Origin: Streptomyces sp. NBC_01723 | GTDB taxonomy: Bacteria; Actinomycetota; Actinomycetes; Streptomycetales; Streptomycetaceae | Direction of reading: 5' to 3' | DNA: 64,000 nucleotides | Assembly (NCBI RefSeq): GCF_036246005.1 | Contig: NZ_CP109171.1 | Coordinates: forward strand, 868,001 to 932,000 | Shown: positions 9,201 to 11,931 of the stretch, one piece after another | How positions within the stretch are numbered: the first letter of the stretch is position 1 | How the letters are laid out: each line of letters begins with the position of its first letter | The notes under the pieces: generated by a model | The model's input: only the letters and a program-made list of their open reading frames with translations | Told to the model about the DNA's origin: nothing | Database searches by the model: none | Position numbers and translations under genes: made by a program

Positions 9201-10853
9201 TCAGCGTCTGCGGCCGGCGTGCAGTTCCAGATGCTCGGCTTCGAAACGCGCCCGGAAGCAGCGATCGTGCGAGACCGCGACCACTGCCCCCGGGTACGCC
9301 GCGAGCGCCGCTTGCAGGTCCTCGGCCAGGTCGAGTGCGATGTGGTTGGTCGGCTCGTCGAGGACGAGAAGGTCCGCGGGCCGGGTCACCAGGGTCGCGA
9401 TCTGCAGGCGCCGCTGCTGCCCCACCGACAGGGCGGCGACAGGCACGAGCAGGTCCTGTTCGCGGAACAGCCCCAGGGACAGGAGCTGTTCGGCGTACTC
9501 CTCCGGCGGTCCGGGCCGCCCGGCGGCGAACGCGGCGAGCAGTGGCAGCCGCGTGGCCCGCGTGGGCAGTTCCTGGGCGAGGTAACCGATGCGGGCGGGC
9601 CGGCGCGCCGTACCGGCGTCCTGCCGCAGATCGCCCGCCAGGACGCGGAGCAGCGTCGTCTTGCCCGCGCCGTTCCCGCCCGTGACGAGGAGGCGTCCTC
9701 CGGGCTCGATCGTCAGGAGCCCGTCCAGGCGCAGCCGTTCCCCGACCCGTACGTCGTCGAGTTCGGCGAGGGTGCCCTGGACCGGGCCGCCGAGCGCCGA
9801 CGGCGGCGCCGTCGTGAACCGGAGCGGTACGGGCGGCTTGGCCACCGGGTTGCGCCGCAGCCGGTCCAAGCGCTCCCGCACCGAGCGCACCTGGCCGCCG
9901 AGCTTCGCCTCGCTGGAACGGCGGTGCTTGCCGAAGCCCTGCTTCGGGTCGCGGCCGGTGCTGGCCAGCCGCCTGCCCGCGGCCTCCAGCAGCTCCTGCG
10001 CGTGCGCCATCTCCTCGACCCAGTCCGCGTACCGCTGCTCCGCTCCGCGCCGGGCGGCGGCCTTCGCGGCGCGATACCCGTCCCAGCCGTCACCGTACCG
10101 GCGCACGGTGCGCTCGTCCCGGTCGACCTCGAGGATCGTGGTGGCGATGCGCTCCAGGAAGCCGCGGTCGTGGGTGACCGCGACGACGGTGCCGCGGTGT
10201 GCGCGCAGGTGTTCCTCCAGCCAGCGCACGGCCGTCGCGTCGAGGTGGTTCGTCGGCTCGTCCAGGAGCAGCAGTTCGGGAGCGGCGGCCAGGACGCAGG
10301 CGAGGGCGAGGCGCGACTGCTCGCCGCCGGACAGTGAGCCGAGCGGGCGCTCCCGGGCGATCCCCGCCGGCCCGAGCCCGTGCAGGGCGACGTCCACACG
10401 GGCGTCCGCCTCGTATCCGCCGCGTTCCTCGTAGGCGGTCAGCAGCTCGCCGTATGCGGCCAGCTGCTCGTCCGTCGCGTCGGCGAGGTACTCCTCCGCG
10501 GTACGGAGCCTTCGCTCCATGTCGCGCAGTTCGGTCAGGGCGAGGTCGACGGCGTCCTGCACGGTGCAGTCGGCGTCGAGGTCGAGGGTCTGGGCGAGAT
10601 GGCCCGTCCCGCCGGGGAAACGGACGGTGACCTCCCCGGCGTCCGGCGTCTCGGCCGTGGCGAGCAGCCGGAGCAGGGTGGACTTGCCGGAGCCGTTCTC
10701 ACCGACGACGGCGGCCTTCTCGCCGGGCCGGACAGTGAAGGAGACCTGGTCGAGGACGGTCCGGGTGCCATAGGACTTGGTGACGGACTTGACGGACAGC
10801 TGCGCCACCGCGGGGACGGCAGTGGGCAGCACGGTACGAGCGCGGTCGCGCAT
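9201..10853 (-). CDS. ABC-F ATPase, antibiotic-resistance type (ribosome protection)
   Basis: 550 residues with two ATPase domains and no membrane segment. Domain 1 has Walker A GENGSGKST (residues 51-59), signature LSGGEQSRL and LLLLDEPTNHLD. A charged linker follows, then domain 2 with GGNGAGKTT, signature LSVGQQRRL and LLVLDEPTNHI. The Val-Gly-Gln-Gln second signature is typical of actinobacterial CarA/TlrC/OleB-like ABC-F proteins, which dislodge macrolide-, lincosamide- or pleuromutilin-class drugs from the ribosome. The ATG at 10853 follows GGGAAAG. The 5' region has a short leader ORF and alternative hairpins, the usual architecture of drug-induced attenuation. The drug spectrum cannot be read from sequence. 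Confidence 0.88.
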   Translation of the reverse strand: MRDRARTVLPTAVPAVAQLSVKSVTKSYGTRTVLDQVSFTVRPGEKAAVVGENGSGKSTLLRLLATAETPDAGEVTVRFPGGTGHLAQTLDLDADCTVQDAVDLALTELRDMERRLRTAEEYLADATDEQLAAYGELLTAYEERGGYEADARVDVALHGLGPAGIARERPLGSLSGGEQSRLALACVLAAAPELLLLDEPTNHLDATAVRWLEEHLRAHRGTVVAVTHDRGFLERIATTILEVDRDERTVRRYGDGWDGYRAAKAAARRGAEQRYADWVEEMAHAQELLEAAGRRLASTGRDPKQGFGKHRRSSEAKLGGQVRSVRERLDRLRRNPVAKPPVPLRFTTAPPSALGGPVQGTLAELDDVRVGERLRLDGLLTIEPGGRLLVTGGNGAGKTTLLRVLAGDLRQDAGTARRPARIGYLAQELPTRATRLPLLAAFAAGRPGPPEEYAEQLLSLGLFREQDLLVPVAALSVGQQRRLQIATLVTRPADLLVLDEPTNHIALDLAEDLQAALAAYPGAVVAVSHDRCFRARFEAEHLELHAGRRR

Positions 10854-10863
10854 GGGTCTTTCC

Positions 10864-10917
10864 CTGCTGAATCGAGGGGTCTACGGGCAGCAGAAGCGGC
10901 GGCAGGGGCCGTGCCCG
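10864..10917 (-). promoter_or_regulatory. Possible attenuator: mutually exclusive hairpins before the ABC-F gene
   Basis: Two hairpins in the leader RNA share bases. In transcript order the first pairs CGGGCA (10917-10912) with TGCCCG (10889-10884). The second pairs CTGCTG (10893-10888) with CAGCAG (10869-10864), whose 3' arm abuts the GGGAAAG ribosome site (10864-10858). Only one can form at a time, so a ribosome stalled on the upstream leader peptide could decide whether the site is exposed. The pairing is visible; the switching is inferred. Confidence 0.45.
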
Positions 10918-10920
10918 GAC

Positions 10921-10944
10921 TCAGACGAAGAAGAGGAAAGCCAT
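10921..10944 (-). CDS. Leader peptide MAFLFFV upstream of the ABC-F gene
   Basis: An eight-codon reading frame, ATG GCT TTC CTC TTC TTC GTC TGA, starts 6 nt after a TATAGT -10 box and ends 67 nt before the ABC-F start. Its hydrophobic, Phe-rich sequence is typical of peptides on which drug-bound ribosomes stall. Being leaderless, the transcript would begin with this frame. Function as a stalling sensor is inferred from position and from known attenuation of ABC-F and Erm genes. Confidence 0.6.
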   Translation of the reverse strand: MAFLFFV

Positions 10945-10950
10945 GACCCC

Positions 10951-10979
10951 ACTATACGAGACGGGACGTCTCGCCGCAA
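10951..10979 (-). promoter_or_regulatory. ABC-F promoter with a fully palindromic 17-bp spacer
   Basis: On the minus strand TTGCGG (10979-10974) and TATAGT (10956-10951) are separated by 17 bp. The spacer 10973-10957 reads CGAGACGTCCCGTCTCG: two perfect 7-bp arms around TCC. A palindrome filling the space between -35 and -10 is the classic position for a TetR-like repressor operator, so this gene may be controlled both by a repressor and by attenuation. Confidence 0.7.
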
Positions 10980-11008
10980 TGCGTGGGTGCGCGTCGGGGT
11001 GGCGTCGG

Positions 11009-11740
11009 TCAGTAGATGCTCAGTCCGTACACCGACAGCCACTCGACCACCGGCTGGTAGTAGGTGAAGCCTCCCGAGCCGCAGTTGCCGCTGCTGCCGA
11101 CGATGATGCCCAGCGCGGTGGTGCCGGAGAAGGCCGGGCCGCCCACGTCTCCGGGTTCGGAGCAGACGTTGGACCGGAAGAGACCGCTCACGCTCCCTCC
11201 GCCGTAGTTGACCGTGACGTTGACCGCCTGGACGATCCCGCAACGGTGTCCGGTAGTGCGTCCGACATGGCAGACCGACTGGCCGACGACGGGGTGGGCC
11301 GCGGCGGTGATGTCGCGGGTGCCCGCCCCGGCGCCCAGGGAGACCTCGCCCGGACGGGCGACCGTCGTGCCGGTGTACCGGACGGTCGCGTAGTCGTTGC
11401 CGGGAAAGCTGACCCCCGCGGTGACCCCGACGGGGACGGTGAGGGCGGCGTCGGCGTACCAGGAGGTGCCGGCCGTCTGCGCACACCGGCCCGACAACAG
11501 CGCGTACTCGGCGGATCCGGAACGGGCGTTGAACCCGACGGTGCAGCGGGCGCCCGCGCTGTAGAGGACGTCGCCGCCGCGCACCGCGAAGGCGGCCGGT
11601 CTCTCCCGCGGCGCGGCGTCCGCCACCGGGCCGAGGACGGCGGTCCAGCCGAGCAGCAGGGCCAGGAGAACGGCGGCGGTAACGGTGACGTGCGAGGGGC
11701 GGTCGGAACGCGTGCGAGCCACAGCGGCCTCCAATGTCAT
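11009..11740 (-). CDS. Secreted S1-family serine protease homologue, catalytically dead
   Basis: 243 residues. A signal peptide covers about residues 1-43 (AVLLALLLGWTAVLG, cleavage near ADAA). The rest matches the alpha-lytic/streptogrisin-like S1 fold, with the usual cysteine spacing (Cys66/86, 157/167, 193/220). Two triad residues are changed. The TAGHC motif is LSGRC (Arg85 replaces His) and GDSGGP is GDVGGP (Val199 replaces Ser). Asp116 in NDYATV remains. There is no pro-domain between signal and protease fold, unlike active streptogrisins. It should therefore be a binding or decoy protein instead of a protease. I chose the ATG at 11740; an in-frame start 18 codons earlier would put a hydrophilic tail before the signal peptide. 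Confidence 0.82.
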   Translation of the reverse strand: MTLEAAVARTRSDRPSHVTVTAAVLLALLLGWTAVLGPVADAAPRERPAAFAVRGGDVLYSAGARCTVGFNARSGSAEYALLSGRCAQTAGTSWYADAALTVPVGVTAGVSFPGNDYATVRYTGTTVARPGEVSLGAGAGTRDITAAAHPVVGQSVCHVGRTTGHRCGIVQAVNVTVNYGGGSVSGLFRSNVCSEPGDVGGPAFSGTTALGIIVGSSGNCGSGGFTYYQPVVEWLSVYGLSIY

Positions 11741-11931
11741 GTACTGGCCATTGTGAGGCTCGCGGAGCCGTGCGGTCAGACCCAAAGCCGCCAACCAGGA
11801 TGGGTGAATCCGTGCGGCCGACGGCCCGAGCCTCGGCGGGTGGCGTGCCAGTGGAACGAGCGGAAGCCCGCCACCCCTTCAAGGATGGCGGGCTCCTTAC
11901 CGGCTGTGATGGTCAGCGGTGGGTCCGGTCG

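Follow-up and report, generated by a model that had tools for sequence, protein, structure and literature searches.

Sequence comparison indicates that a macrolide-type ABC-F gene is probably governed by a switch with two inputs, in which derepression of a TetR-family regulator would act at the promoter and ribosome-mediated translational attenuation would act on the transcript. For the first input, a TetR protein with a TetR_C_11 domain is predicted to bind CGAGACG-N3-CGTCTyG. The predicted site fills the spacer between the -35 and -10 boxes of both the ABC-F promoter and the promoter of a macrolide-inactivating glycosyltransferase gene, so that binding of the repressor would shut out RNA polymerase. 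The TetR protein would leave its operator in the presence of a macrolide or a similar drug. We infer a macrolide ligand because of the two target genes, which favor macrolides over lincosamides or pleuromutilins as the inducer. For the second input, the mRNA would begin at or near the AUG of a seven-codon aromatic leader whose codons are predicted to pair with the ribosome site of the ABC-F gene; a drug-stalled ribosome on the leader would cover the paired codons and free that site. The first input would report drug in the cell, and the second drug on the ribosome.

The ABC-F gene and its upstream region

The window, i.e., the whole stretch of DNA analyzed, comprises 64 kb of a Streptomyces chromosome (G000:C1:868001-932000). 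Its ABC-F gene (9201..10853, minus strand) encodes a ribosomal protection protein of 550 amino acids resembling TlrC, CarA, OleB and SrmB, as judged from the open reading frame and profile scores. The protein scores 381.6 bits against the ribosomal-protection ABC-F profile NF000355, narrowly above the cut-off of 380. Its best profile match is NF000171, which describes the TlrC/CarA/OleB/SrmB producer proteins, yet the score of 677.2 bits lies under the cut-off of 800, and the protein is therefore termed TlrC-like and not a member of that family. TlrC and other ARE4 proteins confer resistance to macrolides and streptogramin B according to the available text of PMC10201436, and the gene studied here probably shields ribosomes from macrolide-type antibiotics.

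All elements upstream of the gene lie on the minus strand, in the order TTGCGG, a 17-nt spacer, TATAGT, GGGGTC and the ATG at 10944. The -35 box TTGCGG (10974..10979) was assigned from the sequence and its orthologs, and the -10 box TATAGT occupies 10951..10956. As the original prediction had stated, the whole spacer between them is a perfect 7-3-7 palindrome, CGAGACG-TCC-CGTCTCG (10957..10973), the putative TetR site. The predicted leader of seven codons can likewise be read directly from the sequence ahead of the ABC-F gene: the frame ATGGCTTTCCTCTTCTTCGTCTGA (10921..10944) encodes MAFLFFV followed by a stop codon, and its ATG stands 91 bases ahead of the ABC-F ATG at 10853. The stretch from the leader to the ABC-F gene (10866..10920) starts with GTCCGGGCACGGCC, is conserved among orthologs and holds an inner hairpin. 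It is followed by AGGGAAAG (10858..10865), the presumed ribosome binding site of the ABC-F gene, for which pairing with the leader codons is predicted.

TTGCGG agrees with only three of the six -35 consensus letters, and a standard sigma-70 scan called no promoter here (0 found). Judged from the 6-nt gap between TATAGT and ATG only, the mRNA may start at or close to the leader AUG and would then be leaderless; the accessible part of PMC8079986 describes leaderless transcription for several leader peptides of S. lividans. A scan of 10300-11600 for intrinsic terminators returned none, which makes translational attenuation the likelier form of control. A search of Rfam returned one chance match, below its cut-off. 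A WhiB7/WblC promoter was also considered and set aside, as the AT-rich element of this motif was not seen. The same-strand gene further upstream (11009-11794, minus strand) resembles a secreted trypsin-like serine protease when its translation is read by eye, and seems to be no part of the system.

The leader peptide and its predicted pairing with the ribosome site

A DNA search recovered the leader region in 43 of 392 genus genomes at E 3.5e-9 or better (hand count); these were kept from 146 genomes that matched in all. Among the weaker matches, which were discarded, seven loci were read. Five of them held one common sequence that looks by eye like MoeB/ThiF-like coding sequence (four in printed context), and two were 23-base matches. 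Two loci, L074 (G345) and L079 (G049), had a leader-region DNA match, and an ABC-F gene was not found in the stretch fetched. The ortholog upstreams listed retain the promoter boxes, the palindrome and the short frame, together with TCCGGGCACGGC past its stop codon. The original prediction had been staked on conservation of leader and palindrome at homologous loci, and both are conserved.

In the ABC-F clade termed clade A, phenylalanine is the penultimate residue of all 72 readable leaders. Seven codons were counted in 67 of the 72, eight in four and six in one, with a script that favored the seven-codon start where several fitted. These leaders comprise 27 distinct peptides, e.g., MAFLFFV, MRFFYFL, VTFYYFR and MRHYFFL. 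The leader is also kept in 11 of 11 genomes that have no TetR, eight of which are without an intact operator.

The ABC-F proteins of the sister clade, clade B, are ~63-72% identical. An aromatic-ended leader, often MGSYYFFL or MGSYYFFR, was present in 52 of 55 distinct clade-B upstreams, a count favored by a detection rule that sought aromatic-ended frames. It covers the loci with an N-terminal match; L227, L228, L232, L237, L241, L248-L251 and L255 (out of 40 loci) gave no such match and one further sequence was too short. Within the 60 bases ahead of the leader, the palindrome occurs in a single one of the 52 leader-bearing upstreams and is absent from the other 51, although many of these operator-less genomes do have the TetR gene (e.g., G005, G006, G019, G052 and G053). 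As the leader is found in both clades and the operator mostly in one, the leader is the layer common to both.

The original prediction of two mutually exclusive hairpins was not borne out. In the predicted minimum-energy fold, the leader codons pair with the ABC-F site AGGGAAAG and enclose the second hairpin, so that the structure is nested. The stability of the whole-leader fold equals that of dinucleotide shuffles (z 0.00). When 63 sequences were aligned, their consensus fold lacked the helix between leader and ribosome site, and covariation could therefore not be counted for it.

CTTTC, the complement of GAAAG in the ribosome site, occurs in 26 of 31 distinct leader sequences, where synonymous redraws with the codon use of five window frames expect 1.0 and the highest of 2000 draws gave 6; these redraws overstate the significance, since the leaders are related to each other. 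The element stands at codons 2-3 or 6-7 depending on the type of leader, and is retained in both types. Mean energies of the duplex between leader and site were -14.4 kcal/mol for native leaders, -11.8 kcal/mol after synonymous recoding and -13.0 kcal/mol when leaders were swapped between species, and at 38 of 66 loci under 5% of the recoded leaders paired as well as the native one. These RNA tests covered 66 of 69 sequences, after removal of three in which the ABC-F start was shifted, and two more without a recognized ribosome site were left out of the pairing test. In the remaining 64 of 66 sequences, the mean predicted pairing of the ribosome site was 0.88 and fell to 0.60 once the leader was blocked, mimicking a stalled ribosome. 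With 60% pairing left in this model, the site is not open.

These fold results suit an explanation by repressor alone, in which the operator is real and the short frame serves as a leaderless start, a stability element or a coupling device whose RNA shape is conserved: the fold does not rise above shuffles, the helix is missing from the consensus, and the site stays mostly paired with the leader blocked. We consider this explanation unlikely, as the short frame with its aromatic ending is kept in every readable clade-A leader, recurs in nearly all clade-B upstreams where the operator is almost always absent, and is written in clade A with codons that keep CTTTC. The leader-peptide half of the original prediction is thus supported, at the level of sequence, by the conserved short frame, its aromatic ending and a codon choice that preserves pairing with the ribosome site.

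Predicted operator, target genes and candidate TetR repressor

Taken alone, the palindrome is weak evidence, because near-matches to its core are no more common in the window than in shuffles (9 found with up to two mismatches against 10.4 expected). Its conservation and its company across genomes, by comparison, argue strongly that it is real. The central three bases vary, the first of them being G in 29, C in 14, A in 12 and T in 3 of 58 sites.

The genome that holds the window has six exact sites: one in the ABC-F promoter, one in the promoter of a glycosyltransferase gene, two in the intergenic region between a TetR gene and a gene for a DUF6243 protein, and two inside unrelated genes. With one mismatch allowed, 31 and 38 matches were counted on the two strands (69) versus 16 and 13 (29) for the reversed pattern. 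The glycosyltransferase scores 777.2 bits against NF033129 ('macrolide-inactivating'), above the cut-off of 700, and oleandomycin glycosyltransferases are the nearest solved chains. Its promoter follows the plan of the ABC-F promoter, with TTGCAC, the palindrome, TACGGT and ATG. Directly upstream of the glycosyltransferase gene lies a gene for an Erm(O) 23S rRNA methyltransferase (L128, G000:C1:6552000-6558500); no operator was seen by eye in the 260 bases ahead of it. The same genome carries a second ABC-F gene (55% identity; L064, G000:C1:2768439-2770061, minus strand), which is preceded by the variant palindrome GACGAGACG-AAC-CGTATCGTC. As the spacer between TTGACG and TAGTTT, this variant may belong to a promoter, and an aromatic leader was not seen there.

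We searched 199 Streptomyces genomes for the promoter plan, written as GAGACGNNNCGTCTYG with a -10 box behind it and, 4-8 bases after that box, a start codon; the window's own promoter has a spacer shorter by one base and does not fit this pattern. The search returned 34 matches in 32 genomes, and the reversed-pattern control returned none. Fifteen of the matches lie at an ABC-F leader, and the other 19 lie where a gene for a macrolide-inactivating glycosyltransferase begins; 30 of the 34 loci were read (14 aromatic leaders, 16 glycosyltransferase starts) and the other four were assigned by coordinates. All 32 genomes fall among the 158 of 199 that have the TetR gene (hand comparison; p 3e-4). 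A search of six genomes for perfect sites gave seven places, five of them at the glycosyltransferase gene and two at neither target gene (G054:C1:1983116 and G074:C1:1356614). In the glycosyltransferase promoter of G031 (L468), two tandem operator copies stand ~20 bases apart. The same predicted repressor thus appears, from sequence, to control the macrolide-inactivating enzyme in many species.

The original prediction had called for a TetR-like gene with the same palindrome, and such a gene was found at G000:C1:2252723-2253364, outside the window, with the site upstream of itself and a coherent set of target genes. Its product scores 52.2 bits for PF00440 and 91.2 bits for PF16859, above the cut-offs of 24 and 32, and the top match by sequence among solved chains has E 2.7e-15. 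An exact AGACGN3CGTCT lies between -250 and +45 of the TetR start in 66 of 71 fetched orthologs (50% identity or more) and in none of seven paralogs (30-41% identity), and 38 of the 71 orthologs have two or more exact core sites. Three of the five orthologs without an exact site have one with a single mismatch, and one begins at a contig end. As controls, the site was met in 7 of 20000 shuffles and in 337 of 6340 pieces drawn at random from the fetched loci, a set that includes many loci retrieved for holding it. The gene divergent from the TetR gene (L127, start ~3975, plus strand) encodes a DUF6243 protein of 67 amino acids beside its own copy of the site; the term DUF6243 was absent from the open-access literature searched. 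A second TetR gene of the same genome (37% identity; L120, G000:C1:6949355-6949906, minus strand) adjoins one-mismatch sites at 6950012 and 6950029, and perhaps represents a sister regulon.

Presence of the operator largely follows presence of the TetR gene. At the ABC-F gene, ten core letters were scored in a fixed window ahead of the leader start in 72 genomes, with TetR counted as present at E 1e-50 or better. Nine or more letters were found in 58 of 61 genomes with TetR compared to 3 of 11 without (Fisher 2.0e-6), and 0.06% of shuffled promoter windows reach this score. A cut-off of 8 gave 60/61 compared to 4/11 (1.7e-6), and a cut-off of 10 gave 45/61 compared to 1/11 (8.3e-5). Micromonospora okii, Nocardiopsis endophytica, S. 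aculeolatus and S. niveiscabiei are among the TetR-less genomes. Six of the 72 loci break the rule: G272 (10/10), G402 and G403 (9/10) keep the site without TetR, and G311 (7), G001 and G411 (8) have TetR with a decayed site. The set includes L024, L261 and L289; the rows of G039 (leader not found), G345, G049 and the genome of L302 were left out. A quick tree of the ABC-F proteins with 69 rows, including three fragments, shows ten changes each for TetR presence and for the operator. Strong branches yielded six independent contrasts; the operator follows TetR in about four of them, and none runs in the opposite direction (sign test, median p 0.125). The uncorrected counts are strong, and the tree-corrected test on six contrasts is too small to decide.

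A similar pattern was obtained at the second target. The glycosyltransferase gene was found in 137 of 199 genomes at E 1e-130 or better; 126 upstreams were read and 124 starts placed (all but G174 and G092), and the operator was taken as the best match up to 200 bases before the conserved N-terminal motif. It is present in 116 of 117 loci with TetR and 2 of 7 without; after removal of 16 loci that had been found by the pattern, the counts are 100 of 101 and 2 of 7 (p 1.1e-6). Among the seven TetR-less loci, four resemble each other upstream and thus amount to about one event, and another, G179, is a 57% homolog. Eleven glycosyltransferase genomes stand outside the count (G114, G134, G042, G027, G037, G070, G075, G086, G156, G158 and G166), of which G070 and G086 are without TetR. 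A scored absence of TetR may reflect an assembly gap in drafts such as G050, which is 82% complete.

Could the leader be the only control, and the palindrome have a structural role in the promoter or bind a different kind of protein? Clade B, with its leader and no operator, and the eight TetR-less clade-A genomes that retain the leader without an intact operator would fit such a scheme. Nonetheless, it is very unlikely, as the palindrome also occurs at glycosyltransferase promoters and upstream of the TetR gene, and is lost jointly with TetR at two targets. That a different TetR binds the ABC-F operator appears highly improbable. Related TetR proteins have related half-sites in common, the second TetR gene of the window's genome does lie beside its one-mismatch sites, a variant site ending in CGTATCGTC precedes the ABC-F paralog, and G272 keeps its operator without the TetR named here; the exact site was nevertheless missing from every paralog checked, and operator decay accompanies the absence of the named protein. 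The chance of a fortuitous palindrome in GC-rich DNA is negligible given the conservation at a fixed position, the empty reversed-pattern control and the rarity of nine core letters in shuffled windows, even though near matches are as common in the window as in shuffles and one-mismatch matches to the reversed pattern reach 29 beside the 69 oriented ones. The repressor operator between -35 and -10 that had been proposed is, at the level of comparison, strongly supported by the candidate TetR, its targets and the joint loss at two genes.

In a broader version of the two-input switch, to which we give even chances, the TetR_C_11 repressor would be a genus-wide macrolide sensor that commands scattered glycosyltransferase, ABC-F and DUF6243 genes, with the ABC-F gene alone needing leader stalling in addition. 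If so, the ribosome factor would be made only with drug present and at the ribosome, the inactivating enzyme would need the first signal only, and the DUF6243 protein would join the macrolide response as a new component.

Relation to known systems

That ABC-F genes can be controlled by attenuation is established, with lmrC, tiaA and are5sc as Streptomyces examples (PMC12421871 and PMC8546547, as far as their available text goes). The attenuators of lmrC, tiaA, are5sc, vmlR and cplR likewise have a short upstream frame ahead of the ABC-F gene, and at cplR a stalled ribosome exposes a masked Shine-Dalgarno element (accessible parts of PMC10201436, PMC12421871 and PMC8546547). The same parts of these three papers give MLV, MVGDDDISG, MIN and MR[I/M] as leader peptides of ARE1, ARE2 and ARE5 genes, several of them with terminators, and contain no description of TetR control of the five genes. 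The system described here differs from them in its TlrC-like gene, its aromatic leader, the absence of a detected terminator and a TetR-type operator in the promoter.

Two layers are combined in the bmrBCD operon of Bacillus subtilis, where a promoter repressor, AbrB, is joined to a ribosome sensor on a leader. According to the portion of PMC4191407 available, AbrB sets growth-phase timing and the promoter is unresponsive to the drugs; the system controls a transporter through a leader of 53 amino acids and transcriptional attenuation. The same portion describes attenuation of the ermC type, which likewise uses a leader peptide, a masked ribosome site and release by stalling. Unlike in bmrBCD, the predicted repressor here is a TetR protein with drug-resistance target genes, and unlike in the ermC type, it is the leader codons that are predicted to cover the ribosome site. 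Drug-responsive repressors of the TetR type such as MphR(A) and MtrR have, as is predicted here, a TetR DNA-binding domain, a palindromic operator over promoter elements and control of resistance genes. Their sites and target genes differ from those described here, where unlinked ABC-F, glycosyltransferase and DUF6243 genes are the predicted targets.

In the open-access literature, outside of which most subscription journals lie, we found no TetR for these genes, no aromatic leader of a TlrC-like ABC-F gene and no joint regulon, nor any report on a regulator of the glycosyltransferase. The accessible parts of PMC10219788 and PMC6109786 hold nothing on the genes of this system. Work on the candidate TetR may already exist under a different name; one possible identity is SCO1712 of S. 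coelicolor, which the available text of PMC10608281 and PMC7105598 describes as a TetR antibiotic down-regulator.

The proposed switch offers a testable candidate answer to what turns on intrinsic macrolide resistance in Streptomyces, in which one predicted site unites enzyme inactivation with ribosome protection. It also puts forward a candidate repressor of the OleD/Mgt-type glycosyltransferase. This enzyme is widespread, and the accessible part of a review (PMC6804068) calls its detailed function in non-producers not defined. Genomes that have lost the repressor layer and kept the leader, together with the leader-only sister clade, form a natural comparison, and the aromatic leaders represent a new series for asking which nascent peptides stall with macrolides.

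The pairing of erm and mgt genes has precedents. In S. ambofaciens, srmA is followed by mgtA/gimA, as described in the same part of PMC6804068. The Erm(O) gene directly ahead of the glycosyltransferase gene in the window's genome can be likened to this order. S. lividans has the pair lrm-mgtA. In contrast to these erm-mgt pairs, the glycosyltransferase gene here has a promoter of its own that is filled by the operator.
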